The position numbers were made by a program, and so were the translations under genes. A stretch of DNA of 22,530 bases from Chrysochromulina parva (Eukaryota > Haptophyta > Prymnesiales > Chrysochromulinaceae), in NCBI GenBank assembly GCA_002887195.1, contig PJAB01000650.1:1-22530 (forward strand), given 5' to 3'. Under the pieces are notes generated by a model. It saw nothing but the letters and a program-made list of their open reading frames with translations, did no database searches and had not been told where the DNA came from. This document shows, piece after piece, positions 2,675 through 20,900 of the stretch (its first letter is position 1; each line of letters begins with the position of its first letter).

Positions 2675-5600
2675 TTAAGCCTGCACGACTGAAAATGATG
2701 CGCGAGGCCGCGCGCCCAGAATCTGAGCCTGCGTGGCAGCTCCAGCCGTCACGGCTGATGGCAGCACGCGACGCGGCGAGGCGGCCCGATCAGTAGCGCT
2801 CGCGGTGGCGCCATTTGGCAGCGCCATCAGAGAGCTCTGTCGGCCCGACAGTTGCCGACTAGCTGGCAACGGCTGCGATGCGCGCGGCATCTTCCCTCCA
2901 CTCGCGCACAAGGGGTCGGAGGCCGCCGCCTCGGGGGGCGCCGGCAGCGGCTCCCCAGCTCTCATTCGGAGCACCCATTCGAGATCGCGGAGATCGACGC
3001 GCTCCATCGCGCCGCGCGTCGTCCCGGGCGTCACCGCCTCGTCGAAGACGGCGTCGAGATCCAGTGCGGGCGCGTCGATGCCAATGGTGCGCACCGCCCT
3101 GTGGAACTCGAGACGTGCCACGCTGCCGCTGGGGCCGCCGCCCGAGCTGCCCTCTTCACCCGAGCCGCCGTTGGCCGAGCGACGAAGTAGACCCACGATG
3201 CGTGCGGCAGATCGGTCGAGAGCACTGCGCAGCGTGAAGCGCACTAACTCGGCGCACTCGATCGTGCCCGAGCCGTCGATGTCCATCTCCGCAAATACGG
3301 CCTCGCACGCCGCCGCGTGCAGAGGGTTCGTCACAGCTGGCATCGTCTCCGAGAAGGAGAGCCCGGGCAGCCTGAGCGTCGCGATAGCACGCCCGAACTC
3401 GTGACGACTGATCAGTCCAGAGCCATCCTCATCCCATCGCGCAAAGGTGTCTGCCACGCGGCTAAGCGAGCTGGCTAGTGCGTGCTTGAGCAGGGCCTTG
3501 GCGTCGATGAGCTCCGCACTCGGCACGGCCATCGACACCAACGCCGGCGTCGCCCTCGGCGTACTCGGCCCGATCGTCTGGGGTGGGCCAGTTGCCTTTT
3601 TCAGCATCTGGGGAGTCGCTCGTACAGGGCTAGCCGAGCACGAGCCACCCGCACCGTACGGCCGCGCCTGCGTAGCTGCGCCGTGCTGAGCGCCGCGCTG
3701 CGACGAGGCGCCGTGCTGAGCGCCGCTACTCTCGCCGCACGCGCCTTTGCAACTCGCCTCGCATCCCTCGCGCGGTATTGCCACGAGCTCGAGGTGCCTT
3801 ATCGGAAACTTGCCGCCTTTCTCATCGCCCTTGCCGCCCTTGCCGCCTCTCTCACCGCCCTTGCCGCCGTTATCACAGCCCTTGCCGCGGTTCTCACCGC
3901 CCTTGCCGCGGTTCTCACCGCCCTTCTTGCCGCCTTCGACGCCATTGGTGGGGCTCCTCGTCTGCTTGGGAGAGCTATTGGCGGACGGGGCGAGGGTCCG
4001 TCGCAGCTCCTTGTACTCCACGGTGCCGCTGCCGTCCACGTCCATCTCGTCAAAGAGCTCATCGATGACGTGGTCAGGAGCGTCGAAGCCGGCGGCGCGA
4101 ATCGCCGATTGGAACTCGGAGCGCTGGATGGTACCTGTCCCATCCGTGTCCCACTTGTGCAGAAAGTCGGTGACGCGCCCGTACGAAGCCGTTAGCGCGC
4201 TTTTCAGAAGAGCTACGATGAACTCGGAGTACGCCATCTCACCTGAGGAGAGAGGCGACCAGTGGACGTCAGAGAGGCGATCGGCCATGATCATCAGAGG
4301 CAATCAGCCCCATCTAACCCGGACCTATTGGTCATCAATCAGATCGAATCTCAGCCCCATCTCACCCGAGCCATCCCGATCATAGTCGTCAAAGATGCCA
4401 TCGCACATCTCGTCCGTGACCGTCGTCCCCATGTTCGCGACGAGCTTGCGGAATTCGACCTTCGTGACCGCGCCGCTGCCGTCGGCATCTAAGAGTCGGA
4501 AGTCGCCGCTCATCTTGGCGATGTTTGCACCAATGACACGCTTGAGTTGCTCTTTCAGACCCTTCCACACTTTCTGCGTCAGCATGACCCCAATATCACG
4601 GTAACTGACAGTACCATTCGTATCGGCCTTGAAGTCGTTGAAGAGCTTATCCACCTGATGCAGGAGGTAATCATCAATGAGATCTTCAGGTGATTATCAG
4701 GTGGCACTCAGGTGGAGTCGAAGAGCGTGCTCACCTCCGCTTGCTCCGCCACGAAGCCGAGCATCGCGATCCGTTGACGGAACTCGACCTGAGGAGGGAG
4801 GCAATCAGTCAGAATCAAATGTCATCAGATCGCCATCAGAGGTCATCAAGGTCGCCATCAGAGGTCATCAGTGGCAATCACGAGACTCGACCTTAGCGAG
4901 CCGCCCAGTACCAAGTTGGTCCTGGCTCGTCAAGTACGCGAGCACACGCGGCCAGTCCGCGCTGAGCTGCTCACGTAGTGGCAGCCGCTTCTCGTGATCT
5001 CGCGGCTTCTTCTTAGCCGAGATCGTGAGCGAATTGACCACGTGCTCCTCGGTCCATGAATCAGAGGTCCACGTAGGGGGCAAGGCTTCCAGTGGCTCCA
5101 CCTCCGGCTTGGCCGCGGACTTGGGCACGGGTCTCGCTTCAGGCCGGATGACCCTCGTGGTGCGGCTCAGCGGCAGCCCCTCGGCTAGGCCAGCGGCGTC
5201 AGCGGCAGGGGCAGGCGGCGACGACGTCCCAAGCGTTCGCCCCTTCATAGGCATTCGTAGCGTCGGCCCTAATTTGGAAGGTGGTTCGTTGGGCTGACCT
5301 TCCTCGCCGTCAGGGCTGGAGCTGCTGCCGGGGCGACCCTGGCTCGATGGTTGGCGTGCCGACTCCAAGCGCGCGACGTGCTGTTGCACTGGGTCGCGGA
5401 TGGCATGCCATAGCTCATTGATCTGAACAAAACCATTGCCGTCCTCGTCGAACGAATCGAAGACTAGGTCGGCATCGTGCGCGGGAGCCTCGATCCCGAG
5501 CATGGCGACCACTTTGCGGAACTCCTCCTTTCCCAGTTTGCCGTCACCATTCTCGTCCCACTGACGGAAGAGGTCGAGCACCTCGACGTGGTTGGCAGAC

Positions 5601-8600
5601 AGGGCACTCTTGATCTGTCGCTGGATCTTGTTGGCGGCAGACGCGTCCACGTCCACCGGGCCGGGCTTCCGCCAGATGGCCCGCTGGACCTCACTGGCGC
5701 TCTTCGCCTCGGGCTTCCGCCAGATCACCTTCTGGAGCTCATCGATCTGAAGACGACCATCGCCGCTCTTGTCGAACGAATCGAAGAGTTGGTCGATCTC
5801 GTGTGCGGGAACATCATCGATGCCGAGCATGGCGATCGTCTCGCGGAACTCCTTCTTTCCCACAGTGCCGTCAGCCTTCACGTCCCCGTGACGGAAGAGC
5901 TTGTTCGCGCTCCCCCGTTGGCGGAAGAGGTCAAGCACCTTCGCGTGATTGGCCTGCACTGCGCTCTTCATCTGCTGCTGGAAGTGGTTGACAGCGGTGC
6001 GAGCAGAGCCACCGATGCCGTTACCGGTACCGGTGCTGCTGACAGCCCTGCGCTCAAACTCATCCACCACCTCCTCCTCATAGCCCTCCACGTTGCTCTC
6101 CACATCATCACCGTACGCCTCCTCGTCGCACTCGTCCGCATCGTCCCTGCCATCCTCATCGTCCCTAATGAGGGCCTCTTCCATATTTGGCGCGTCGAGA
6201 GAGGCATGCATCTTCGGAGCGGCTGGGGGAGCTGAGTGAGGCGGTGGGGGCGCAGGAGAGAGCTGTTGTCGCGGCGGCGGCTCGAGAGCTTGGAGCGGCG
6301 GCGGCGGCGGCTTTGGCGGTTTTGGTGGCGGCTTCGGCAGCGGTGTCGGCTTCGGTGGCGGCGGTAGGAGCTCTGGCATCGTCAGCGGCTGCTGTGGCGG
6401 CAGCGGCGGCGGCGGCGGCTTCGGTCGCTGCGCCAGCTTTCGCAAGGAGCTGGCGGCTGCGTCCGCAGGCGGCGGCTGGCGTGACGCCGCGGACAGCGAG
6501 GGAGGTGGTGGGCGTGCCGATGAACACCCTAGAGCGACGGAATTCGTGGAGACGGCGCCAGACGACGCGACGCTGCACGCATTATAACGGGCGACCGTGG
6601 CGCTGCCTCGGCTAAACGAGGGCGTGGACGACGACCCATTCGAAGCCCACAGCGTGTCGCCACCACCGCCACCGCCGCCACCACCACCGCCACCACTGCC
6701 ACGGTCGCCCCATCTGCCGCATCTGCCACCTCGTCCGCAGCCGCCTCCACCCCCGCCTCCACCCCCGCCTCCACTCCCGCCTGCGCCACCGCCTCCGCCA
6801 TCGCGTCCGCCGCTGCCCACGGCGCGCTCGATGCGTTCAACGGCCTCGCGGTCCTCCAGCTGCCTGTCCGCAAGCAGTGCGAGCCCCCTGTCCAATTGGT
6901 TCAATCTGGCAGGCAAGGCGCGTTGCAGCTCAGCGGTATCGGCCGCGACAAAGCGCTCCAATCCAGCGAGCACCTGATGAGGGAGGCAATCGGTGCTCAC
7001 CAGAGGCAATCCGAGGCAATCCGAGGCAATCCGAGGCAATCCGAGGCAATCCAGCGAGCACCTCGCGCTTCTCATTCTCCTCCTCCAGGCCGTCCAAGTG
7101 AGGATCACCTTCCAGATTAGGATCGCCCATCACCGTCCGAGCGCCCAAGTCCGCAGCAAAGTCGCTTGGCTCGTACCCATCCGCACCGGCCGCGCGACCT
7201 CGGGGCTGGCACCATGCGGAGGGAGTGCACATCAAGAGCGGCAGCGAAAAGGGCGGCGGCACAGCAAAGTAGGCGCGCGCGCACAGGAGCGTGGAGACGC
7301 GGTGGAAGCCAAACTCCTGCTCGGCATTGACATCATACTTTTGGTAGGTGTTACCCAACCGAGCGATCAGCAGGTTGACGAGCAGCACTTGAGAGGCCAT
7401 CACGTAGAGCCAGAGCAGCGGCTGGCCGACCCAAGGCGACGCTTGCTCGATGGTGTCGAGCGAGGACTCACCGAGAGCCGCCCAAAAGGGCACGCCAAGC
7501 GCCGAGAGGATCGACCAGCCAGCCTCGTCCGCTTCGCCGTCGCTCGAGCCGGCGGTGCTGCCTGCTCGTGCGGCAGCCCCCGCGGCCGCGGCGTTGGCCC
7601 CGCTGGCCTGCCAGTTGGAGGCGAGGATGGGGCGCCAATGTGGCGCCTGGACGGAGAGAAGGGCGACGAAGGCAAGGCCGAATCCGAGCGCGACGACCTG
7701 CACGGCAGCATCCGCGCCAATTATGAATGGCGATCACGGGCAATCAGTGGAGCATTCATGGTCATGAATGGCACTCAGGAGTGACGTGGCACTCATGAGT
7801 GGAACATTCATGGTCATGAATGGCAGACAGTGACCATCCCCGGAACCTACCGAGAAGATGACGAGGAAGAGCGCCACGTCAGAGATCATCTTGCTCAGGA
7901 TGATCATCAGAACGCCCAGGATGCGGTGCTGAGTGAGCAGATTGAGCAGACGGATAGCCATCGGAATGGCGCACATCCCAAGGATGAGCAGAGAAATCTC
8001 CGCGGCGCCCCACAGGGTCTCATCCTGCGTGCCGTCGGCCACGTCGACGCTCGACAGGTGGCGACCCCAAGGCACGCCGGCCCATCCCCCCGCCGGCCTG
8101 GAGGGCGAGGGCGGTGGGGGGGAGGGCGAGGGCGGCGGCGGCGGCGATCGGTCGCCATGGACCGCCGCTTCGGCCTCCAGCCGCTGCCGTTGATCAGCGT
8201 GCCACGCGAGGCCGAGGGCAAGCAAGATCAGCAGCAGGGTGCTGACCTCGAGGATCGTGCCGGGACCATTGAGAGAAAGCGCCCGGCGAGGCCGACGCGC
8301 GTGCTGTGACGCGTGATCGACGACCAAATTGAACGTCCACCACAGAAAGAGAGGCTCGAGCAGCCAGAACGGCAGCCGTCCCCATGGGCCGGCCGCCGCG
8401 GCACTCGCGATGGCGGCTGAGGAGGAGATGGCGGCGCCACTGCTCGAAAGAGCGGACTTTCGCTGCGTCAACGAGGACGAGGACGGGGCGGCGGCGGCGG
8501 CGGCCGCATGCGTCTCGACGCGCGTGAGCAGCACAAGCACAAAGAGGCACGAGTACACCACGAGCAGCACATTGCGCAGCAGCAGCTTCACCCGTGGCAC

Positions 8601-11600
8601 GCGCACAAATTCCAACGCGAGCTCATGGTGTCCCAACGGCAAGGGCGCTTGCTCGCGCTGCTGGGCTAGGGTAAGGCGCCGCTTCGCCTTCTGCCACGCG
8701 GCGCAGTGAAGGTCGGTGCACGTACTGAGCGTCTCCGAGTACCTGATGAGAGAGGCAATCAGGACGCCACTCGGTGCAGGCTTCAAGGCTCTTCTCGTGC
8801 CCGAGAGGCAATCAGGCAGGCAATCAGGCAGGCAATCAGGCATGCAATTACCCGAGAGGCAATCAGGCATGCAATTACCCGAGAGGTAACAGTAACGTCT
8901 GGATCAGGATCGCCGAGGAGCTCGTGTGGTGGGGCAGGCCGAGCCGCCGCGTCTGATGCAGGAGGGTGCGCACGAGGCCGCGGCAGTGGGGGTGCCCGAG
9001 GAAAGCCTTCATCTCGGCCGCGAAGGCGAATTCGAGCAGCGAGAGCCCCCACACACGATCGGCCTTGGCCAGGTGACGAACCCCTACCGGTCCGAGCGCC
9101 ACCGCGGGCGGCAGGTGGTCGAGCACGCGCGCGCACCTGTGGGGAAGTAAGGCTGCCGTAGTGAGCGTTTGCATGCAAGGCAGGTGGTCGAGCACGCGCG
9201 CGCGCACCACGCCTCGAACTGCTCGGCGCGCGCGTTCAGCGTGGCCGTGTCGGTCTCGGGCAGCTCGGCCATCGCCACGCACATGGCGGAGGCGAGTAGA
9301 CCGAACCGCACCTGAGGTGATGAGACCGACATGCAGGGAACGGCTCTCAGAGAGGCAAACAGAGTCGAAGCAGAGGCGAATCAGAGGCGAATCAGAGGCG
9401 AATCAGAGGCGAATCAGACCCACCGGAGTTGCCATGCGCCGCCAAAGCAGAGACGCGAGATCCCACGCGCCCACCGCGACGCTCCATACAAAGACGTCGG
9501 AAGAGCGCACCTGTGAGGAAGTGAGGCCGCCGTGGTGAGCGTTTGCATGCAAGGCAGGTGGTCACCTCGGAGGAGCGCACCTGCCGCCCGCGCGCCACCC
9601 ACGCATCCTCATACGACGGCACGAGCGATGCAAGAAAGGGCAGCACGCCCTCCTCGTACCTGTGGGGAAGAGGAGGGAGGGCGCCGTGGTGAACTTGTGC
9701 ATGCATTCGACACAAGAAAAGGCAGCACGCCCTCCTCGTACATCTGGCGTTGTTCTTCTGCTGAGCTCGAGCGGACGTTCACGGGGCAGCTGCGCAGCGT
9801 CGTGAGGGACGCCGAGGTGGCGAGCGCTGCCGCGGTGGCGTCGCTCACACTGGCACAAGTGTACAGGGCCGGTAAGTTGACCTGGCTGAGAGAGGCTCGA
9901 TGAGACAGGAGCAGAGCGACGATGGCGACACGTCTCTGCTCGAGGGCGCACTGCAATGCACACTGGACAGCCTCTGCCACCGCCTCGGCCGCAGCAGGCC
10001 GGCCTCTCTGGGGAGGCATTCGAAGGCCCCCTGCCGCTGCTGCCGTGGTTGCGGCCACCGCCACGGCCGCTGCCAGGTCCTCGCGCGCATACATCTTGCC
10101 CAGCAGCTCCCTCATCAGATCGGCACGACCCCAGCGCACCACCAGCCTCACCTGCAGAGGCACTCAGAGAGGCAGTGGATTGAGAGGCACTCAGAGAGGT
10201 CATGTTGGAGGGGCACACAGAGAGGCACCTGATAGAGAGGCGCATGATTGAGAGCAGCAATTCAGAGGTCATCAAGATCCACTCAGATCCAATCAGATCT
10301 AATCATGGATCCAATCAGAGGCGATCAGATCCAATCAGATCTCATCATGGATCCAATCAGAGGCGATCAGAGGCGATCGCGTACGGGCTTCTCGATGAGC
10401 CATTTGGATTGGCCGCGCGGCAACGGTGCGCCGGTACGACCTGTGGGGAAACTGGCACGCCGTCGGCTCGCGCTCGTCGCGCTACCGCCCAAGACGGCGC
10501 TACCGCCCAAGACGGCGCTACCGCCCAAGACGGCGCTACCGCCCAAGACGGCGCTACCGCCCAAGACGGCGCTACCGCCCTGACCGAATCCGACTGTGGA
10601 CTGCGAGGTGGCGGCGCGCGCGGCTGTGGCCTCGGCGGCGACTTGTTCATGCCGCTGGAGCATGGCGCGAAGGATGGCGAGGTCCAGGGGCAAGCAGCCC
10701 GACTGGAGATGCTCGAGGGGCAAGCCCGCCTGGCCGCCGGCCGCGCCGGCGCCGGCGCCAACTCCGGCCCCGGTCGCGCCGTGTTGAGCGCCACCGATGC
10801 GGTAGCAGCTCAGGAGAGGACCTACGCCGCTCAGCTCATCGAGGGCGCAGATGCTCTCGAGCAGCGGCGTGCACTCGAGCCACCGACCCCCCTCGTAATG
10901 AGCGAGCACCTCGGCGGGCTCCGCGGTCGAAAAGGTCGACCCCCATAAATCCGCATGCAGCTGGGCGGCGGCGGCGGCGTGCCGAGCGTCGAGGTACGCG
11001 GACAGGGCGCCCGCTGCACCGCCCGTGTCCGCGAGAAGCATCACCCCAGCACGCTTGTGCGACACCGCGTACAGTACTGATCGCAGAGTGCTCACCTGAT
11101 GAGGGACGCAATCATCCAGGCCGTAGCATGCAATCATCAGAGGCAAAAAAGCATCAGAGGCCATCAGCGCTGAGTGCTCAACTGATGAGGGACGCAATCA
11201 GCCAGGCCGTAGCATGCAATCATCAGAGGCCATCAGCGCTGAGTGCGGAGTGCTCACGTCGCCGCCAAGCACGAGCACCGCGCACGGGGCGTCGTAGATG
11301 CGGCAATAAGACTCGAGGGTGCTGTCGAGTGCCACGGCGGTTGCAGAGCGCTCAGTGCCACCGCCGCCGCCCAGCACTCCGATGCCGTCTTCCTCCTCGC
11401 CGTTGCCCTCGCCGCCCCCGCCGCCCCCGCCACCCTCACCGCCGCCGTCGCCACGCGCCTGGCCGTCTAGCAGGACCAGATGCGTATGGTGCGGCTCGAG
11501 CTGCCGGCCGTGCCGCGCGATGGCTCGATGGTGTGCCGGCAGCGCCGACGCCGACTCGAGCGGGTATGGTCGGGGTTCGGAGGAGCCTGCGTTCGCAGCC

Positions 11601-12439
11601 AGCCGGTGTCGATTCTTCACTTGAGCCCAGGGGATGAAACCAACGAGTGGGAATCCGGCCGCGGCCCCATGCTCCGGGTCGGCCTCGGCAGCGGCCGCCA
11701 CGAGCATGGCGCTCAGGCCTGCGGTGGCAGCGCTGCCGGACGCGCACATGACGAACGCGCCTGTCGCGCGCACCGCCGCCGCCAGACCCCGTGCCATCAA
11801 CCTGACGAGGTGGGGCGACCACGACGGCGCGCTAGGTGGCTCGGCGGCGGCGGCGGAGGCGAGGACACCGCTGCCGAGCACGCACACCGCCGCGCGGCGC
11901 AGCTTCCAGTACTTGGCCATCAGCCGCGCCAGCCGGCTTGGCGCGACATGCTGCGGAGTGCGCAGGTAGCGCGCTGTTGCCACCTCGCTGCTGCCACGCA
12001 CGGCACGGCCGACGAAGCACAGCAGGCCCCAGTCGGGTCGCACACCGGCCGATCCGTCGCCGAGCAGGTGCGCCGGCGACCAGCGCACCACACCCAGATA
12101 GTGGCTCTCGATCACCGCAACGGCCAGCTGCTGGCGCACGCGGTCGATGCCGGTCGGTGCGATGATCAGCTTGGAGCTCGATGACGAGTGAATCGAGAGG
12201 CTATGCTGGCTGCCCGAGAAGTAGCCCAGGCTGCGCTTGGACTGCGCCCACAGTGCCGCGTGCAGGTGCGACGAGCCGGGCGACATGTGGCTGCTGCTGC
12301 GGCGGGAGTCGGAGGTGATGAGAGGCTCCGTGTCGGCGTCCGCGCTGCCGCTCCTGCTGGCTCTGCGAAGGCTCTCGCGGCGCGCCCTTTGTGCGGCCAA
12401 GGCGATCACCGACGGTGGTGCACATTGCTGGCGCTCCAT
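2675..12439 (-). CDS. TRPM-like cation channel with a C-terminal array of about 14 EF-hands (14 exons)
   Basis: Exons, 5' to 3': 12439-11258, 11095-10585, 10440-10385, 10151-9742, 9659-9581, 9510-9424, 9311-9208, 9136-8897, 8742-7851, 7697-7062, 6973-4892, 4788-4735, 4654-4366, 4242-2675. All join in frame, giving about 2,729 residues. Residues about 165-450 are a TRPM SLOG domain (GFIPWAQVKNRHRL, HTHLVLLDGQA, CAVLVLGGD). About 450-890 is the TRPM homology region (VQCALQCALEQRRVAIVALLL, DVFVWSVAVGAWDLASLLW). S1 is at about 942-963; S4 to S5 reads IRLLNLLTQHRILGV; the pore reads PFWAALGE; S6 is followed by a TRP helix and a PPP motif. Then come a coiled coil, poly-Gly and poly-Pro linkers and seven EF-hand pairs, nine loops canonical. 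The expected role is a calcium-regulated membrane cation channel. The ATG at 12439 is the first in frame; the frame stays open to 12547, so an upstream exon is possible. EF-hand arrays are not a feature of the TRPMs I know. Confidence 0.85.
3808..3934 (-). repeat. Lys/Gly-rich coding minisatellite in the EF-hand tail
   Basis: Imperfect units encode GGKGG, GENRGKG and similar peptides in the last exon of the TRPM-like gene. It forms a basic flexible linker between EF-hand pairs 5 and 6. The frame is kept throughout. Confidence 0.7.
4243..4365 (-). repeat. TRPM-like intron 13 (GATTGCCTC family)
   Basis: Donor GTGAGATGG at 4365; acceptor CTCCTCAG before 4242. The exon restarts with the same GTGAGATGG. 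Splicing restores the EF-hand loop DRDGSGEMAYSE. The interior contains GATTGCCTCTGATGATCA and GCCTCTCT units. Confidence 0.85.
4655..4734 (-). repeat. TRPM-like intron 12 (GATTGCCTC-like)
   Basis: Donor GTGAGC at 4734; acceptor GCATCAG before 4654. The start of the intron (GTGAGCACGCTCTTCGAC) resembles the start of the next exon (GTGGATAAGCTCTTCAAC). Splicing joins FVAEQAE to VDKLFNDF in frame. Confidence 0.8.
4789..4891 (-). repeat. TRPM-like intron 11 (GATTGCCTC family)
   Basis: Donor GTCGAGT at 4891; the intron ends GATTGCCTCCCTCCTCAG. The next exon begins GTCGAGT again. The interior is built of TGATGACCTCTGATGGCG units. Splicing gives TGRLAKVEFRQRIAMLGF, an EF-hand helix. Confidence 0.88.
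6283..6425 (-). repeat. Poly-proline coding tract
   Basis: Repeated CCX codons encode Pro-rich blocks (PPPPPKP-like) in the linker before the EF-hands of the TRPM-like channel. It may be flexible or may bind SH3/WW/profilin-type partners; this is inferred from composition only. Confidence 0.6.
6655..6815 (-). repeat. Poly-glycine coding tract
   Basis: Runs of GGX codons encode almost pure Gly with occasional Arg, Cys and Ser, after the coiled coil of the TRPM-like channel. On the + strand the same bases read as a false proline-rich frame. Confidence 0.6.
6974..7061 (-). repeat. TRPM-like intron 10 (GATTGCCTC family, tandem 10-mers)
   Basis: The first 15 bases GTGCTCGCTGGATTG recur exactly at the start of the next exon (6973 downward). 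The interior is about five tandem GATTGCCTCG units and the 3' end is GATTGCCTCCCTCATCAG. Splicing joins NEKRE to VLAGLERF, continuing a coiled coil. Confidence 0.9.
7698..7850 (-). repeat. TRPM-like intron 9 with duplicated inverted repeats
   Basis: Donor GTAGGT at 7850; acceptor GTGCAG before 7697. It interrupts transmembrane helix S5 and splicing gives LFLVIFSVVALGFGLAFV. The interior has two copies of CATTCATGACCATGAATG, each an inverted repeat with 8-base arms, plus one GATTGCC unit. No clear duplication of the exon start. Confidence 0.82.
8743..8896 (-). repeat. TRPM-like intron 8 (GATTGCCTC family)
   Basis: Donor GTTACTG at 8896; 3' end GATTGCCTCTCTCATCAG. It contains several CCTGATTGCC units and two ATTGCATGCCTGATTGCC blocks. 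Splicing joins AILIQT to YSETLSTC in phase 2, just before S1. The donor is less certain than the acceptor. Confidence 0.78.
9137..9207 (-). mobile_element. Introner-like intron 7 of TRPM-like gene (TGCATGCA family)
   Basis: 71 bases with the core TTGCATGCAAACGCTCAC and the end CTTCCCCACAG. Its first 29 bases repeat the first 27 bases of the next exon (9136 downward) apart from one CG dinucleotide. Splicing gives FEAWCARVLDHLP in phase 2. Confidence 0.88.
9312..9423 (-). repeat. TRPM-like intron 6 (GATTCGCCTCT tandem repeats)
   Basis: Donor GTGGGTC at 9423; acceptor CACCTCAG before 9311. The interior has four or more tandem TGATTCGCCTC units, a variant of the GATTGCCTC motif. Splicing joins RRMATP to VRFGLLASAM in frame. 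Confidence 0.85.
9511..9580 (-). mobile_element. Introner-like intron 5 of TRPM-like gene (TGCATGCA family)
   Basis: 70 bases with the core TTGCATGCAAACGCTCAC and the end CTTCCTCACAG. The first 15 bases match the start of the next exon with two differences. It also holds GACCACCTGCC, an exon fragment otherwise found at intron 7. Splicing joins ARGRQ to VRSSDVFVW. Confidence 0.88.
9660..9741 (-). mobile_element. Introner-like intron 4 of TRPM-like gene (TGCATGCA family)
   Basis: 82 bases. The first 29 (GTACGAGGAGGGCGTGCTGC onward) recur at the start of the next exon (9659 downward) with one mismatch. The core is ATGCATGCACAAGTTCACC and the end CTCTTCCCCACAG. Splicing gives EEQRQMYEEGVLPFL in phase 2. 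Confidence 0.92.
10152..10384 (-). repeat. TRPM-like intron 3 (GATTG/GCCTCT repeats)
   Basis: Donor GTACGCG at 10384; acceptor CTCTGCAG before 10151. It contains two copies of a block with GCCTCTGATTGGATCCATGA, then GCCTCTCTGAGTGCC units. Splicing joins WLIEKP to VRLVVRWGRADLMREL in phase 0. The donor is placed from frame and repeat pattern. Confidence 0.72.
10441..10584 (-). repeat. Probable in-frame TRPM-like intron 2 with 18-bp minisatellite
   Basis: Five full copies plus a partial copy of GCTACCGCCCAAGACGGC (+ strand, 10481-10580) precede the - strand 3' end GTTTCCCCACAG. The 144 bases are a multiple of three and lack stops, so they could instead encode (GGSAVL)n. The intron reading joins VGFG to RTGAPLPRG. 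I favour an intron because of its acceptor and the AG/GT pattern. Confidence 0.55.
11096..11257 (-). repeat. TRPM-like intron 1 (internally duplicated GATTGC element)
   Basis: Donor GTGAGCACTC at 11257; the next exon also begins GTGAGCACTC. Two head-to-tail copies of a block of about 76 bases each carry GATTGCATGCTACGGCCTGG and end CCCTCATCAG. The interior stop codons rule out translation. Splicing completes the SLOG domain: VLVLGGD to VSTLRSVLY. Confidence 0.9.
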
Positions 12440-13025
12440 GGCGCAGTCGAGAGGTGGTTGGCGGAGGCAAAATTTTCGCACCAGTGGAGCGCGCCGCGCC
12501 GAACTCGACGCAATTGAATCCTCATCAGGGGCCGTCAAGTCAGACAAGTCAAGTCAAGTGTAGGACGCGCGGCGCGGGCGCGTGTGTTGGCGCCTGCGCC
12601 TGCGGCAGGCCCCCCGCTCTATGGGGAATTCCCTCTCCGCCATCTCCGTCGACTCCCCCTTTCACAGGTTGGCTTCCGGAGCACCATGGAGCACATTCGA
12701 TCTAGGCCCCTGTTTGGGTTGTCTGTTGTTTCTGTATACGTTGTACTTGTTTGACTTGACATCGCTTGCTGAGAGGACAAGCGGACGGAGGTGGATAGAC
12801 CGACACCTCTCTACGCAGCGCACACGCACCAGTGCCGCCGCGATCGCGAATTCGCGATGGTGGGGCCTCCACACGGGACATACTTACACATGACAGACAG
12901 CGGGTACAACCAACAGACCGGGCCCGGCCAGTGCAGTGACCACCCCATGCCATCCGCATCGACAAGAAGCGTCAGTATCCGATCCGGTACAGTGACCGCA
13001 TTCGAGCGGTTTTAGAGGCAATTGT
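12440..13025. promoter_or_regulatory. Upstream region of the TRPM-like gene
   Basis: About 585 bases between the TRPM-like start and the stop of the next - strand gene. It should hold the TRPM-like promoter and 5' leader and the neighbour's 3' untranslated region. The TRPM frame remains open to 12547. A short repeat of CAAGT(CAAGT) units is at about 12528-12559. No TATA box or RNA gene is evident. Confidence 0.45.
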
Positions 13026-13853
13026 TTAGAGGCCCTCACGGGGGCCCGCATGGAGGCCCTGCGGCGGGAACGATTGCCAGCCGTACACCGTCGGCCCCGT
13101 GTACTCGACACCGTCGCTGAGTCTCAGCACCTCCTTGGCGATCTCGCTCGCGTACGGGCTTGAACTGAAGCGGCGCTCAATCGCCTGCTGGCGGCGCCGG
13201 TTGATGCGCGTGGCCATCGAGAGGTCCTCCTCGCCCTTGTCGAAGCGGCGCGCGTAGTAGTTGCCAGTGTAACCCGGCGCCGGATCCGGTCTCGCGCCCG
13301 ACTCGTCGCCTTCGCGCACCTTGCCCCATGCCCAATTCACTGCTGGGGGCTCCGGCGGAGGACGCACCTTGGGCAGCACCTTGTTCGTGCCCGAGAGCGG
13401 CTTGGGGTTCTGCCTCGGAATGGCACCCTTCTTCGAGCCACCCTTGCTCGCGTAGCTGCCGATCGCCTTGGACGTGGGCGTCATGTCCTCGACAGTCGGC
13501 TCCCATGGCGAGTAGCTTAGGCCGGGAGTGTCGCCGGGTTCACAATCCGTCATCCGATCGAGTGGGTAGAGTTTACCACCAGCCTGCTGGAAGCTTGCGA
13601 CGGGCCGGGTGTTGAGCGCATTGTTATGCTTGTCGAACCACCGGTTCTTCAGTGTCTCCTCGTCGAACCACGTGCCGTGCACATTTGACATGGAGGCAAG
13701 GCGGTCGCCATTGCCGTCGGCCGACCTGGCGTTGCGGTCGCGCATCCCGTTGTCAGGCACAAGGAGGTCTTCCTCCCTGAACTTGCCGGTGGGGTCCTTC
13801 CATCTGCCCTTGTGTGGGGAGATGGACACCATCTCGTCGATCAAGGCTTCCAT
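13026..13853 (-). CDS. Unrecognised conserved protein, paralogue A (275 aa)
   Basis: A single open frame from an ATG at 13853 to a TAA at 13026-13028. The family is not one I recognise. It contains MSNVHGTWFDEE, a WFDKHN motif, GDTPGLSYSPWEPT, a Pro/Lys-rich middle, then YTGNYYARRFDKGEEDLSM followed by an Arg-rich helix and GVEYTGPTVYGW near the C-terminus. It is clearly paralogous to the next gene (14289-15365), in the same orientation and 435 bases away. It lacks both EF-hand-like segments of that paralogue: its N-terminus is shorter and its C-terminus ends in HAGPREGL just after SFPPQGL. No signal peptide or membrane segment is seen. A structural or flagellar role is possible only by loose analogy. 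Confidence 0.75.
   Translation of the reverse strand: MEALIDEMVSISPHKGRWKDPTGKFREEDLLVPDNGMRDRNARSADGNGDRLASMSNVHGTWFDEETLKNRWFDKHNNALNTRPVASFQQAGGKLYPLDRMTDCEPGDTPGLSYSPWEPTVEDMTPTSKAIGSYASKGGSKKGAIPRQNPKPLSGTNKVLPKVRPPPEPPAVNWAWGKVREGDESGARPDPAPGYTGNYYARRFDKGEEDLSMATRINRRRQQAIERRFSSSPYASEIAKEVLRLSDGVEYTGPTVYGWQSFPPQGLHAGPREGL
13171..13271 (-). repeat. Near-identical 101-base segment shared with the paralogue (copy 1)
   Basis: Matches 14512-14612 with a single mismatch, including third codon positions, while flanking parts of the two genes have diverged. Confidence 0.85.
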
Positions 13854-14288
13854 CGGTGCGAGCTCGCGCGGTCGGAGCCTGGCGTGAGCTGGGGAGAGCG
13901 GTGGCGGCCCTTTTCGGAGACTTTTAACAAATTTGGCATCCAGTTCCGCGAAGTAACCGCATAACTTTTACGACGCCCGACTCCGACACCAAAGACGACA
14001 ATCCGACCCGGACACAGACACACAACCGCAGGGCCCGTTCATGCGTACATGGAAGGCGCATTGGGTACCCCATTCTGGGATGCACATTCTACCCCACGTT
14101 CGCCTCGCGACACAGCACGTCACACCTCAAACCATAATTGCTCCTGGCGTCTTGGGGGAGGGAGAACGCCTACGGGCTAACAGCCGTTAACGCCTACGAG
14201 GCTACAGCCGTTATGCGCCGCGCGTCGGCCGTTCCGCCGCATCGGCCTCGGGGATAGGGGAGGTGCAGCCCCCCGCGCGCACTTGCGC
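13854..14288. other. Intergenic region between the tandem paralogues
   Basis: About 435 bases holding the upstream region of paralogue A and the 3' flank of paralogue B. It contains a two-copy 24-base tandem repeat. No promoter motif or RNA gene was recognised. Confidence 0.5.
14165..14212 (+). repeat. 24-base tandem repeat, two copies
   Basis: Each unit begins AACGCCTACG and ends CAGCCGTT; the copies are 14165-14188 and 14189-14212 with a few differences. It lies just downstream of paralogue B's stop codon. Confidence 0.7.
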
Positions 14289-15365
14289 TCAGTGGAGCAT
14301 GGACTGAGCCATGCGCGGGTCGATCTTCTGCAAGGCGAAGGCACCCGACTCGGTGAAGGGCGAGTCGACCTTGCCGTCGCCGTCGATATCGACGAGGCCC
14401 TGCGGCGGGAACGAACGCCAGCCGTACACCGTCGGCCCCGTGTACTCGACACCGTCGCTGAGTTTCATGACGTCCATTGCGATCTCGTGAGCGTACGGGC
14501 TCGCGCTGAAGCGGCGCTCGATCGCCTGCTGGCGGCGCCGGTTGATGCGCGTGGCCATCGAGAGGTCCTCCTCGCCCTTGTCGAAGCGGCGCGCGTAGTA
14601 GTTGCCAGTGTAGCCCCACGCCGGGTCCGGCTTCAGGTCCGACTCGTCGCCTTCACGCACTTTGCCCCACGACGGGTTGTCCGAGAGCGACATGTGGGGT
14701 GGCGGCGGGGGCTTCGGCTTAGGCGCCGCCTTCATGGTGCCCGAGGGCGGCTTCGGCTGCGGATACATGGCGGCCTTCTTCGGTCCGCCCTTGCTCGCGT
14801 AGCTGCCCACCGCCTTGGACATGGGCGTCATGTCCTCCTCCGTCGGCTCCCAAGGAGAGTATGACAGGCCGGGCGTGTCGCCGAGCGCCTCGTTGACGTC
14901 CGTCTGCCGGTCGAGCGGGTAGAGGCGCTCGAAAAAGGTCTCCGCGGGGATGGAATCGCGCGCCCCGTTGTGCTTGTCGAACCACCGCTTCTTGAGTTCC
15001 TCCTCGCTGAACCATGTGCCATGCACGTTGGACATTGACAAGAGGCGGTCGCCGTTACCGTCGACAGCCTTTTTGTCGCGGTCGTACCTCAGCTTGTTGT
15101 CGGGCGCGAGAAGCTCATCCTTATACTTCCAGCCGCCAACGTGCCGGCCTGCGTACGCGCCATGGATAATCTGCTGCTCTGTCGGCTTCGGGCCATCGGG
15201 GCGCGGCGTGGAGGTGTCGGTGTCAACCGCACCGCCGGGTTTGTGCGAGCCTGAGTTGCGTTCCTTGGCGCCCGCGTCGGGCGCCTTCGGACGGCCCTTG
15301 CCGAGCGCACGGAGCTCCTCGTAGCTTACCTTGCCATCGCCGTCAAGATCCGCGCTGCCCGGCAT
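14289..15365 (-). CDS. Unrecognised EF-hand protein, paralogue B (358 aa)
   Basis: A single open frame from an ATG at 15365 to the stop at 14289. Residues 6-17 form a complete EF-hand loop (DLDGDGKVSYEE) at the very N-terminus. A second loop-like segment near residue 325, DIDGDGKVDSPF, lacks the Glu normally found at position 12 and may bind calcium poorly. Between them is the same core as paralogue A: MSNVHGTWF, WFDKHN, GDTPGLSYSPWEPTEEDMTP, a Pro/Lys-rich linker, and YTGNYYARRFDKGEEDLSM plus an Arg-rich helix. The first EF-hand has almost no entering helix before its loop, so an upstream exon is possible, though none was found. Calcium binding is inferred from the loop; the core function is unknown. 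Confidence 0.78.
   Translation of the reverse strand: MPGSADLDGDGKVSYEELRALGKGRPKAPDAGAKERNSGSHKPGGAVDTDTSTPRPDGPKPTEQQIIHGAYAGRHVGGWKYKDELLAPDNKLRYDRDKKAVDGNGDRLLSMSNVHGTWFSEEELKKRWFDKHNGARDSIPAETFFERLYPLDRQTDVNEALGDTPGLSYSPWEPTEEDMTPMSKAVGSYASKGGPKKAAMYPQPKPPSGTMKAAPKPKPPPPPHMSLSDNPSWGKVREGDESDLKPDPAWGYTGNYYARRFDKGEEDLSMATRINRRRQQAIERRFSASPYAHEIAMDVMKLSDGVEYTGPTVYGWRSFPPQGLVDIDGDGKVDSPFTESGAFALQKIDPRMAQSMLH
14512..14612 (-). repeat. Near-identical 101-base segment shared with the paralogue (copy 2)
   Basis: Partner of 13171-13271. It encodes the NYYARRFDKGEEDLSM and Arg-rich helix region. Confidence 0.85.
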
Positions 15366-15930
15366 CCCCTTTCGTACGGCCCCAAAGGTCCTTCAGCTGT
15401 TTTTTTGGGCTTTCTGTTTTGCCACAACTTTTTTTGACACGTTTCCACGCGTGGTGTCGGGCGCTATGGGTCCGGTGCAAACAAGACTTTTTTTTTAAAT
15501 TGAAAGGGGGCATGGCGCACTCCCACTCGATCTCAGGCACTCGAAGAGCATCCCGATCCGGCACATGCCCACCGCACCCAGTGAGTGAGTTTTATCTGAA
15601 GACTGAACCAATGGACTGAACGCCAACGCGGCTTGTCCCTACAGTTCAAGACCCCCTGGGGTGCGCACCCAGCAGAGCAGGGGTGGCCCCAGGGTGTGAG
15701 AGTGTGGTGTGGTTTTGAGAGAATTGTGGCCACACACGCACCTAGCTCCGAGCCGCGAGCACCGGACCCGCCGGCAACCCGGCATGCCCGTCGCGCGCGC
15801 CGGCCGGTGCGGCACCGCAGAATGGAATGCGTACGCGGCTTCATGTCGTGACTCGTGTGCACATGGGGTTGTAAACTTGCGGCATTTTCCGGATTTCCCC
15901 GGTTGCACGCGCGTTGCACGCGCGCACGGC
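15366..15930. other. Intergenic region upstream of paralogue B
   Basis: About 565 bases between paralogue B's start and the kinase stop. It includes AT-rich patches unusual for this window: T-runs near 15400-15435 and a T-run followed by AAATTG near 15487-15505. These could mark a promoter for paralogue B. Open frames here have no recognisable protein. Confidence 0.45.
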
Positions 15931-17740
15931 TCACGGACGGGCCTCTGCATTTGGGCTAGGTCCGGGTCGTCGGTTCTCCAGCGGTGTAGGTGTGCGGCTC
16001 ATCTCCATGGCGGCCAACAGCCGCTCCCTCAAGGCCGCCGCCGTTGGGCGTAAGGGGGCTTCCACGCAGCAGTCACGCACGTACTCGTGCAAGCAGTGGC
16101 CCTCGGGAGTCGCCGCGCTCGGAGTGTCACGGCCGCTGAGGAGATGCTCGCGCAGCTGCACGCTGCCATCGCACCCGTCCACCGCCGCGCAAGGCGAAGT
16201 ATCGCCGCGAGCGATGCACGCGAACACGCAACCGAGCGCCCACACGTCCACTGCAGCGTCGTACTGGGCGTATCGGAGCTGCTCGGGCGACGAGAAGAGC
16301 ATGGTGCCCACGGCGAACTCGGTCATACTCGAGTCGTCAATGGCGCGGCTCGTGCCGAAATCAGCCAGCTTGGCGACGAGTGAGAGCTTGCCGAAGAGCA
16401 CGTTCTCAGGCTTGATGTCGCGGTGCACAATGGGAGGGGTGTGCGCGTGCAAAAAAGCCACACCCGTCGCCAAGTGCTGCGCGACGTTCAGCACCTCGTC
16501 CAGTGTCCACTGCGCCGCAACACCGCTGCTGATGTGTGTGCCTAGACAGCCGCCGCCCACGTACTCCATGACGAGCATCACGCGCCCCTTGTTGGGCTCG
16601 ACTGACCAGCCGTGCAGGCGCACGATGTTCGGGTGCGGCGCGAGGCACAACTCCACGTGAATGGAGCGCTTCAGATTGCGGAGCACCTGGAGAGAGAGCA
16701 CCTGTGGGGCAGAGGTGAGGGCGCCGTGGTGAGCACTTGCATGCAAGGCGGAGCGCCTGGGGAGAGAATGCGAGCACCTTTGTGTGGAGCAGCTTGACCG
16801 CGACGCGACGCGGCGGGCGCGACGAGGTCGTGGTGTGCGACGAAGCGCCCTCCGGCGAGGCGCCGGCGATGTCGATGTCGTTCGCCCTGTACCAGCGCGC
16901 GTCGTACACGGTGCCGAAGCTGCCGTTTCCAAGTTTGCCCACGAGCCGCAAGCAGCTGCTCTCGATGCGTGTTCTGCACAAGTCCTCGGGCAGAGGCGGC
17001 GCAAACGCCGCCTCGAGCAACGCCGTGGCGGCCACGGTGTTCGAGAGGGAGGGCACCTCGAGCGTGAGCTGCCGTAACATCGCCGGTTTAGGGGGCGTCT
17101 CGGCCGCAGCGCGCGGCGCCACCGTCGTCGAGTTGGCGCGCGCGCGCTCGATCGAGCCAGCAATGAGCTCGTTCAACTTGCTTGCATGGCCCTCGGCCTG
17201 CTGAATCGGATCGGCCGGCATCGACGTCGTGCCGATCGTCACACGGTGGCGGTGCGCTGGACAAGATGGGGCCGCGCACACGCTGGGCGAAAAAGGGTTG
17301 AGGACTTCGGTCCCCTCGGGGAGCTTCACCGAAACCCTCGACCTGAATTCATCGGCCTGCTGGAAGCCTGCTGGCCAGCATGCGGGGAGCTTCGCCGAAA
17401 ACAACACGGTTTTTTCCGATGCTGAGAGCGGGGGCACGGTTGTTTCCGATGCTGAGAGCGGCTCAAGGAGCACTGCAGCAGTGGACTCGTAGTTTCCGAT
17501 GCTGAGAGCAGGTGGAGGGGAGCTCCGCGGCAACGAGTCCATCGATGTCAAACCTTGTGTCAAACTTTGTGTCAAACCTTGAGTATGCAAGGATATTGAA
17601 TTGACCTCAAGCAGCTCGGTGAACAACCGTGTGTGCCTTAGCCACCGGCGGCGGCAAGCAATCGCCACGCCAAGCGCCACGAGAAGTGCAACACTGGAGG
17701 CGAGGGCTGCCACTTCTGCTGACGGCAAGGGCGATGACAT
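15931..17740 (-). CDS. Membrane-anchored protein kinase, Ser/Thr or TKL-like (2 exons)
   Basis: Exons 17740-16778 (321 codons) and 16701-15931 (256 codons plus stop) join in phase 0 to a 577-residue protein. Residues 9-29 are a hydrophobic helix followed by RRR, which suggests an N-terminal signal anchor with the kinase on the cytosolic side. A low-complexity Ser/Thr/Pro region follows. The kinase domain starts near 265: glycine loop GNGSFG (271-276), VAVK lysine 316, helix-C Glu about 338, catalytic HRDIKPEN (Asp about 416), DFG Asp about 435, and SPEQ in place of APE. All key catalytic residues are present, so it should be active. The closest kinase group is uncertain. It is divergent from WASHC5, with 217 bases between the two starts. 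Confidence 0.88.
16702..16777 (-). mobile_element. Introner-like intron of the kinase gene (TGCATGCA family)
   Basis: 76 bases with TTGCATGCAAGTGCTCACC and the end CTCTGCCCCACAG. Its first bases, GTGCTC followed by a TCTC-rich stretch and CAGGCGCTCCG, resemble the start of the next exon (GTGCTC, TCTCTCCAG, GTGCTCCG). Splicing joins VAVKLLHTK to VLSLQVLRNLKRSI, correct for kinase subdomains II-III. Confidence 0.9.
17414..17509 (-). repeat. Three-copy coding repeat TTTCCGATGCTGAGAGC
   Basis: Copies at 17414-17430, 17444-17460 and 17493-17509 (+ strand) encode LSIGN/LSASE-type peptides in the kinase's low-complexity region. An alternative is an undetected intron here. Confidence 0.65.
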
Positions 17741-17957
17741 CGGTAGCGACGGCGGCCGCGACGGCGGCGACGGCGGCGGCGGTGGAGCGCTCCTCCTGGG
17801 AGTCGCAAAATAGAGAGTTTCTTCCGCGCCGATGACGGCCCTGAATCAGTTGCGCACGTTCAGTTTCTCCAAGGGTTCGTGTCGCGTTCTTCACACTTCC
17901 TGTTCCGTTCATGGTCGTCAAGTTTTGCGCCGGGACGCCCGACGCCCTCCTCTGGCG
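17741..17957. promoter_or_regulatory. Bidirectional promoter region, kinase / WASHC5
   Basis: Only 217 bases separate the kinase ATG (17740, - strand) from the preferred WASHC5 ATG (17958, + strand); the gap is 91 bases if WASHC5 starts at 17832. Both promoters and leaders must share it. No TATA box is evident. Confidence 0.6.
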
Positions 17958-20900
17958 ATGGCGGTCAATGTGCTGCTGCGCCTCAGTGCGCGCGGCGAGG
18001 CGCTCATCGCCGAGCTCCTGCGCGTCTCCGACCACGTGCCGGCCTTCTTTGCGTTGGGCGACAAGACCGAGCAGAAGCTGTACTCTGACTTGCTGATGGA
18101 CTTTGCGTACCTGAAGACGCCCGCGCTCTTCGAGCACAAGATCGAGTCGTCGGCCGAGCTCATCGCGCGCGACAGCGAGGTGTGGGACGTGCACGGGAAA
18201 AGAATCGAGCGCCTGTTCGACCTCTTCCAGTCGATCTACATTTACATCAAGGACTTTGTCAAGGTTGTCGCGGACCTGCGCGACGGCGTGTACCTGCAGC
18301 AGACAGTGGAGGGCGTACTGCTCGACGACGAGGGCAAGCAGGTCATGTGCGAGTGCCTCTACCTCTATGGTGTCCTGCTGCTCCTCCTCGATGCGCGCAT
18401 CGACGGCGCGGTGCGCGAGCGCATCGTCGTCGCCTACTATCGGCACAAGGGGCAGTCGGCGATCGAGTCGATCGAAGACATGGAGTTGCTGGTGAAGAGG
18501 ACGGGCTACGTGTCGAACGTGCTCGATCGCAACGGCATGCAGCGCCGCCCGCCCGGCTACCCCGAGGAGTACCTCAACCGCCTCGTGCGCAAGTTGGGTA
18601 TGCCGCCAGCGCTGGTGCTCATGATGATCGACAGGCTTCGCTCGGAAGACATGTACTCGCAGATCCCCTTGTACCCTAAAATGGACCTCGCCTCGCATGC
18701 ATGTGCTCATCACGGCGCCATCTCCTCTTCCCCACAGGTACTCGCAGATCCCCTCGTACCCTATGCCGCAGCACCGCTCGACGGCGCTCGCGACGCAGGC
18801 GCGCATGCTCTACATCATCCTCTACTTCGCGCCCGATGTGCTCGACGAGCAGTCGCACACGATGCGCGAGATCGTCGACCGCCACTTCGCGGGCGCGGAC
18901 GCGTACTGGGTCGTGCCGTACTACATGGGCTTCCTCGAGGAGCTGCCGCACGCGTGGGAGCCTTACAAGGCCGCCAAGGCCGCCCTCTCGAACACGACCA
19001 ACGCCAACGAGATCAAGCGTCTCTACGCGCAGCACACGCAGAACCTGTCGGACTGCCGCAAGAAGTTGGCCCATTTCTTGACCGAGGGCGTGCTCACCGA
19101 GGAGCTCTGCCTCGAGCACACGAACGACCTGCTGCACTGCGTGCGCATGTGCAACGTGACGATCCGATGGCTGATGCTCCACCGGCGCGCGCGCATGCGC
19201 AAGCTACCCGTCGCCGACCCTGAGCAGGAGCGTCGCGAGGCCGAGATGCTGCTGCTCGTGCTGATGGACACGGCCCAGTTCGAGTACCAGCTTCGTCAGA
19301 TCTACACGGCACTGATGGACAAGAAGGAGGAGATGTGGGAAAAGTCGAAGTCGCAGGTGGTCAGCATGCTTCAGGAGCTCTCCGAGGCGTTCAAGGGCGA
19401 CAAGATCCTCTCGCGCATCGGCAAGGACGAGCAGCTCCAGCACTGGTTCTCCCAGCTCGCCGAGCAGGTCAAGCTTCTCGACGCGTCGGACATCGTGCAG
19501 AGTGGGCGCAAGCTGCATCATCTGATCGCGGCGCTCGTCGAGGTGGAGCAGTTCCACCAGATCGAAGCCGCGCTGCAGCTCAAGCAGTTCCTGCACGAGA
19601 CGCGTGAGCTTCTCACGCGCATGATCCGCGTCGTATCGGTGCGCGAGTCGACGCTGGTGACGCTCTGCATGCAAGTGCTCACCATGGCGCCCCCCTCCTC
19701 ACAGGTGCGCGAGTCGACGCTGGTGACGCTCGACGTGGTGTGCGACATGTCCTACGCCTGGCTGGCCATCTCGGACTACGCGCCGCTGATGCGCAACCGC
19801 ATCCAGCGCAACCCGTTCTCGGTGCTCAAGCTGCGCGCGACCTTCCTCAAGCTCTCATCGATCCTTGAGAGCCCGCTCGTGCGCATCCAGCAGTCCAATT
19901 CGCCCGACGAGGAGAGCGTCTCGCAGTACTACTCGTCCGAGGTGCGCTCTCTGCCTCGCTCTGCCACGCTCTGGAGGCTCTGCATGCAAGTGCTCACCAC
20001 GGCGCTGCCTCGCTCTGCCACGCTCTGGAGGCGCTGCATGCAAGTGCTCACCACGGCGCCCGCACCTCCCCACAGGTGGCGACCTTCATGCGCCAAGTGA
20101 TGCAGGTGATCCCTGAGAACATGTTTGCGATCCTGAGCGACGTAGTCACGATCCAGGCCAACGAGCTGCGCGAGCTCCCCGTCAAGGTGGAGCGAGATGC
20201 ACTGCGAGATTGGGCTCAGCTTGAGCTCCGCCATCGCCTTGCGCGCGCCACGCACCGAATCTCGGTGCTGACGGAGGGCGTGCTCACGATGCAGGTGTGA
20301 TGGGCTCGGAGGACCTCGGAGTGCCTCTGACGACCTCGGATTGCCTCTGACGACCTCGGATTGCCTCTGACGACCTCGGATTGCCTCTGATGACCTCGGA
20401 TTGCCTCTGATGACCTCGGATTGCCTCTGATGACCTCGGCTTGCCTCTGATGACCTCGGTGCTGACGGTGGGCGTGCTGTCGCGATGCAGACGACCCTGC
20501 TCGGCGTCGTCAAGGTGGATTCGAAGGAACTTCTCAAGGATGGCATTCGAAGGGAGCTCGTCCTGCAGCTCACACGCGCGCTCCAGTCCGGACTCAGCTT
20601 CAAGCCGGGCAAGCCCGCCGAGCTCGAGGCGGCGCTCGCACGGCTCGGTACACAGCTCGAGGGCTTCCGGCTCGCTCTCGAGTATATCTCGGACTACGTC
20701 AAGATCAACGGGCTGCAGCTGTGGCAGGAGGAGCTTGCGGGCGTGCTCAATTTTTACGTCGAGCAGGAGCGCAACGCATTCCTCAAGAAAAAGGTGCACT
20801 CATGGCAGTCGACATTCACACTGGCCGCCGAGGCTGCCAACCTTGCGCCGCCGGCGGCTTTCGAGCACTCCTTTTTTGGCCGGCTCGTTCGCGAGCTGCT

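Follow-up and report, generated by a model that had tools for sequence, protein, structure and literature searches.

An introner family of Chrysochromulina parva whose sampled copies mostly lie between long duplicates of host exon

How genomes acquire introns is a long-standing problem, and a 22,530-nt stretch of the Chrysochromulina parva genome (contig PJAB01000650.1 of assembly GCA_002887195.1; the whole stretch is referred to as the window) raises it in concrete form, as seven predicted introns in three unrelated genes share one core sequence. The initial annotation had interpreted these introns as introner elements, always inserted in the sense orientation of their host gene. We find that the core, ~24 bp in length (GCATGCAAGTGCTCACCACGGCGC), defines a genome-wide introner family of more than 1000 copies, and that long direct duplicates of host exon flank most of the copies sampled. 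The host is a photosynthetic alga, as judged from 58 light-harvesting matches in its genome.

In agreement with their annotation as introns, all seven segments start with GT and end with CACAG when read on the coding strand, and each contains an 18-base form of the core with zero to four mismatches. They range from 66 to 134 nt (71, 70, 82, 76, 85, 66 and 134 nt in order of position), six of the seven lengths not being a multiple of three; as the last segment holds two cores, the core occurs eight times in total. The predicted family introns are:

9137-9207, minus strand: intron of the TRPM-like gene; core at 9160-9177 (3 mismatches); 25-bp duplicate at 9110-9134 and 9179-9203
9511-9580, minus strand: intron of the TRPM-like gene; core at 9534-9551 (2 mismatches); duplicate at 9494-9513 and 9564-9583; left extra sequence ACCACCTGCCTT, in common with the 9137 copy
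9660-9741, minus strand: intron of the TRPM-like gene; core at 9688-9705 (4 mismatches); duplicate at 9631-9665 and 9713-9747
16702-16777, minus strand: intron of the kinase gene; core at 16728-16745 (0 mismatches); diverged duplicate of ~20 bp
18653-18737, plus strand: intron of the WASHC5 gene; core at 18694-18711 (3 mismatches); 30-bp duplicate at 18649-18678 and 18734-18763
19639-19704, plus strand: intron of the WASHC5 gene; core at 19666-19683 (0 mismatches); perfect 28-bp duplicate at 19638-19665 and 19704-19731
19942-20075, plus strand: intron of the WASHC5 gene with two cores, at 19981-19998 and 20035-20052 (0 mismatches each); 31-bp repeat within the intron, its copies 54 nt apart; across the second core, no duplicated exon sequence was detected

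Are these segments spliced, and are their hosts unrelated? Domain matches bear out the latter: the TRPM-like gene matches the SLOG-in-TRPM domain just above the cut-off (PF18139; 8e-6, 25.9 bits vs. a cut-off of 25.7), the kinase gene the protein kinase domain (PF00069; 3e-34) and the WASHC5 gene the strumpellin/WASHC5 family (PF10266; 2e-67). Joining the 150-nt flanks of each segment gave a stop-free frame in six of the seven cases; at 9511-9580, where the flanks reach into adjacent introns, the best joined frame has one stop. Such frames are weak evidence of splicing, because the DNA is GC-rich and four of the seven unspliced versions (9137, 16702, 18653 and 19639) are open as well. Stronger evidence for the predicted intron boundaries is provided by WASHC5, where removal of the three family introns and of a fourth intron (20295-20490) yields one open frame of 1174 codons whose spliced product (84% identical to its nearest homologue), compared with 11 homologues, shows no gap at any of the four junctions themselves. 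Ten homologues cover the first junction, P0009 being without that site, and all 11 cover the other three. That excision gives back the ancestral coding sequence is hence supported by homologues at the four WASHC5 junctions and by frame in the other genes. No second WASHC5 copy that might represent an empty allele was present among the scored matches (40 of 888 candidates), no solved structures matching WASHC5 by sequence were found, and an Rfam scan of the window returned no match at gathering score.

The core is not limited to this locus. Across the 45.07-Mb genome, its 18-base form has 781+764 matches at up to two mismatches (reversed control, 0+0), a 24-base form 896+895 copies at up to three mismatches, and a 40-base form of the 5′ half ending in the core 41+28 matches at up to three mismatches; the core followed by 8-36 nt and CACAGGT occurs at 77+66 exact places. 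As the reversed control was zero in each case, the core matches are not due to chance. With similar introns in large number across unrelated genes of the same genome, three of these genes lying in the window, the family qualifies as introners in the broad sense, and the places ending in CACAGGT, together with exact WASHC5 intron boundaries backed by homologues, support the introner interpretation. A scan of viral contigs, from which records near the C. parva genome may be absent, gave no exact match to a 20-base core.

What surrounds the core was analysed in 140 distinct copies, drawn from the window plus 108 further loci (290,757 bases), a sample that is not random, as 41 of the 108 loci (L029-L048 and L088-L108) had been picked for carrying CACAGGT. 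Counting a duplicate wherever the top-scoring local direct repeat spanning the core reached a score of 14, we found a long direct repeat of host exon around 109 of the 140 copies, compared with 16 of 694 mismatched pairs. These duplicates measure 14-62 bp (median, 28 bp; 109 copies) and their two arms share a mean identity of 95.5% (90 ungapped copies); perfect duplicates of at least 20 bp were present in 22 of the 90, some of them within tandem arrays. The window itself contains 28 raw repeats of this kind vs. 0-1 in ten shuffles, a list that includes repeats not tied to introns. We consider this anatomy of core plus duplicate practically certain.

Most described introner families look like DNA transposons (PMC9860276), and a short non-autonomous element cut and pasted by a transposase might be invoked here, too. 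However, the long and variable duplicates and the lack of fixed insert ends do not fit such an element, and neither the short fixed duplication nor the terminal inverted repeats typical of introners of this type were seen: in the two inserts tested, no inverted repeat was found (best, 6 of 16 positions; transposase families were not searched for). We therefore regard a DNA transposon as a very unlikely source.

The duplicates bear directly on the origin of the splice sites. When GT and AG stand at equal offsets in both duplicates, taking out one duplicate plus the insert gives back the original exon, and the 109 copies were classified by a mechanical rule on such pairs. In class A (43 of 109), the first duplicate holds the donor at its start and the element contributes the acceptor, a pyrimidine run followed by CACAG; in class B (9 of 109), the element brings the donor (GTACGTTGATTGCC...) and the second duplicate the acceptor; in class C (16 of 109), an AG directly followed by GT lies within the duplicate, which thus supplies both sites; and in class E (41 of 109), there is no GT..AG at equal offsets. 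Equal-offset pairs are present in 68 of the 109 copies vs. 18 of 109 in a mirror test on the other strand. Some copies are misfiled by the rule: L063 was assigned to class A and looks like class B, and the window copies 9137 and 16702 were filed in class E owing to an indel or repeat that obscures the offset, being introns by the coordinates of the initial annotation. In a subset of 69 exact-core copies, taken from neither the window nor the CACAGGT-chosen loci, 14 belong to class A, 8 to B, 5 to C and 25 to E, and 17 have no long duplicate. Spliceable copies add 66-99 nt, apart from one that adds 126 nt; the insert itself can be as small as ~22 bp, both of its ends vary, and many copies are without the 3′ part. 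The CTCAC within the core is, going by the consensus, the putative branch point.

Some introners are already known to bring one splice site, donor or acceptor, and to borrow its partner from the duplicated target (Gozashti et al. 2022, PMC9860276). The present family resembles the introners of that study in placing similar introns in unrelated genes with one site carried and the other co-opted, and differs from them in the length of its duplicates (14-62 bp here; 3-9 bp cited for earlier families and 4-8 bp in the study's own figure examples), in that no inverted repeat was found, and in combining both site-carrying modes within one core family.

Class C copies, whose GT and AG lie inside the duplicate or next to it, would also be expected if AGGT-containing exon pieces had simply been duplicated in tandem, with no mobile element involved, and one relative at the L003 locus (P0242) indeed has a tandem repeat without core. 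Yet a near-constant core at 896+895 places cannot derive from each host exon; this foreign core rules the process out for classes A and B, and none of the copies, all collected by that core, is an intron of duplicated exon only. As an explanation of the family, tandem duplication is hardly credible.

If splicing removes some copies, how do the others persist? Net added length modulo three (0/1/2) was distributed 15/10/18 in class A, 4/2/3 in class B, 5/6/5 in class C and 27/7/7 in class E. The 27 multiples of three among the 41 class E copies still include tandem arrays and blurred introns; once gapped alignments are set aside, along with nine sources that contain arrays or are misaligned, the figure is 16 of 23, and when six copies tailed by CACAGG are removed as well, it is 15 of 17 (p = 4.5e-6), these filters having been picked after the data were seen. 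A simple codon model called 37 copies confidently on both flanks, albeit both the model and its successor miscall some known genes. In 16 of the 21 spliceable copies, the two flanks were both assigned to the core strand, and all 16 keep the reading frame upon excision (12 of 12 among those of non-multiple-of-three length). For the 16 other copies, 14 had both flanks on the core strand; here, the frame continues in 10 of 14 when joined and in 6 of 14 unspliced. Copies appear to persist either because splicing removes them as new introns or because they leave the frame intact.

The exclusive sense orientation claimed in the initial annotation holds within the window, but not in the genome at large, where at least one copy is antisense to its gene. 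In this firm case (L087), an open frame runs on the other strand from the copy and encodes a chromodomain a short way downstream (4.9e-8, Pfam). Two weaker cases look antisense: L020 by open frame (990 vs. at most 302 codons) and L049 by codon model only, both without a Pfam match. On the core strand, L003 and L051 lie in frames with Arm repeats (2.4e-4 and 5.4e-9, respectively; the L003 match is in frame with the copy, far upstream of it), and the frame that holds L038 encodes AMPK1_CBM further downstream (5.6e-14); the remaining frames scanned against Pfam had no match over cut-off. Strand calls for L087, L051, L003 and L038 rest on Pfam because the codon models got known genes wrong, as seen at two window copies. 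Among 26 class E copies examined, the codon model preferred the core strand for 19 and the opposite strand for 7. A sense-only mechanism, at first suggested by the codon model, was dropped after the open-frame and Pfam evidence for antisense copies. On these cases, one firm and two weaker, insertion is not tied to the sense strand, and since an antisense copy adjoins a chromodomain in an open frame, the sense orientation elsewhere probably reflects selection for splicing.

How, then, might the copies spread? We propose that neither splicing nor orientation guides insertion. Where an exon is broken with staggered ends, fill-in on both sides would give rise to the duplicate; one broken end would anneal, through a handful of matching bases, to a copy already present and copy the core with more or less of that copy's flanks; the other side of the insert would be joined through microhomology; and splicing or reading frame would afterwards sort which insertions persist. 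Bases shared between target and element averaged 4.15 at the right junction (20 copies) vs. 1.22 in simulated insertions without microhomology, and 3.22 at the left junction (32 copies) vs. 1.31, in copies selected for inserts ending near the core. Direct repeats of the staggered-break type around a filler, with microhomology, are what break-repair intron gain predicts, and such copying fits better than a transposase because the insert is small, its ends are variable, the duplicates are long and variable, microhomology is present and there is no confinement to one strand. The window offers a possible trace of a donor: the 9511 copy has both a core variant (AAACGCTCA) and the left extra sequence in common with the 9137 copy, at which ACCACCTGCC is host exon found in both duplicates. 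Host-exon bases of one copy within another suggest copying from a neighbour, the pair ranking in the top 12% only of between-contig pairs over core plus tail. At L003, an exonic copy, the inserted residues LHASAHHGA are present in P0241 and absent in P0242 (P0243 being uninformative), which shows variation between close relatives at this one site. We give spread by break-repair copying an even chance of being correct. The reading as a whole, an introner family without recognisable inverted repeats that is copied at staggered breaks and then sieved by splicing or frame, could in our judgement go either way. More tentatively, the family may be self-amplifying without transposase ends or machinery of its own, host break repair copying the core again and again at introner scale and in either orientation, with the spliceosome or the frame sorting the products later.

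Several observations weigh against break-repair copying. Thirty-one of the 140 copies have no detectable long duplicate, four of which (L074, L075, L094 and L105) pair, by pattern, a donor-type left half with an acceptor-type right half. The donor strings in the microhomology test were drawn from the same data. The repeat in P0242 is a short tandem repeat of flanking residues, so that duplication may have preceded the core at L003. Copies on the same contig are more alike (p = 0.0086, but 0.16 without contig C251), and neighbour copying as a general rule is thus weakly supported. In break-repair gains, moreover, the filler differs from event to event, whereas here it is the same core throughout; one core serving as filler more than 1000 times is unexpected of ordinary repair and needs explanation.

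Finally, target-primed reverse transcription also yields variable duplicates and microhomology. In this main rival scenario, a LINE-type enzyme would copy excised intron RNA, or a small SINE-like RNA, into nicked DNA, producing target duplications of variable length, truncation and junction microhomology. Variable duplicates and microhomology are present, and the 45-Mb genome holds five reverse-transcriptase loci (L109-L113), all over the cut-off in the genome search. These matches lie in long open frames, one with an internal stop; of the four frames scanned (L109 and L111-L113), a single one exceeds the Pfam cut-off, and no further domain is present in any of them. Against this route, both insert ends vary and many copies are without the 3′ part, rather than showing the fixed 3′ end and variable 5′ truncation of SINE-like elements (class A alone ends at CACAG), and no poly-A was seen in the inserts examined for class assignment. 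On balance, we consider reverse transcription doubtful.

Besides the introners discussed above, several known systems share some features with this family. Introner elements of Amoebophrya are likewise repeated introns with direct repeats, but of 3-5 nt and accompanied by inverted repeats of 8-20 nt (PMC7789003). Intron gains in Daphnia also show direct repeats ascribed to staggered-break filling (cited in PMC3443670); there, the repeats are short and the filler varied. In mouse cells, breaks with 3′ overhangs of ~50 nt (49-50 nt) lead by fill-in to tandem duplications spanning most of the overhang, and small tandem duplications made by polymerase-theta show microhomology (PMC8355091); these resemble the present duplicates in their fill-in origin and differ in involving neither introns nor a recurrent filler. 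A survey of direct repeats beside introns similarly proposes break entry and repair as their source; there, unrelated introns carry repeats of 4-30 bp (mean, 11.4) (PMC11782384). Fungal stwintrons, too, form families of similar introns at new positions, with no target duplication reported (PMC12403724). Our literature search found no report of introners with duplicates this long, or with unspliced in-frame and antisense members.

The initial annotation had missed the long exon duplicates, the donor-bringing copies, the unspliceable in-frame copies and the antisense copies, all of which bear on mechanism. Because insertions turned into introns stand next to others apparently rescued by frame alone (one of them antisense), the family allows the act of insertion to be told apart from splicing-based selection. 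Each long duplicate preserves a record of its target and is an aid to dating the event, and together the duplicates allow the break-repair route to be tested against transposition and retrotransposition within one genome. Under the self-amplifying reading, repair-mediated intron gain, otherwise described from few cases, would run here at introner scale.

A second repeat family is represented by the fourth WASHC5 intron:

20295-20490, plus strand: intron of the WASHC5 gene, with GATTGCCTCTGA units; predicted from intron removal and homologue fit

By eye, the last ~33 nt of this intron match the end of the exon upstream, apart from a small indel. The member matches dozens of other places, and a 20-base form gave 19+23 matches (reversed control, 0); this family may use the same long-duplicate mode. 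GGCAATC repeats also occur in the TRPM-like gene, e.g. at 6974-7061 and 8800-8875.

Further observations concern single sites. At L028 (contig C81), three head-to-tail 39-bp units with one core each lie in an open frame on the reverse strand near 8694-8772. Within the window, the minus-strand open frames at 13026-13967 and 14289-15392 are adjacent and encode clearly related proteins, as if by gene duplication; an open frame at 4868-7129 (minus strand), beside the channel-like gene, contains EF-hand pairs; and at 970-1297 (plus strand), a 46-bp repeat, its copies 282 nt apart, lies inside an open frame.

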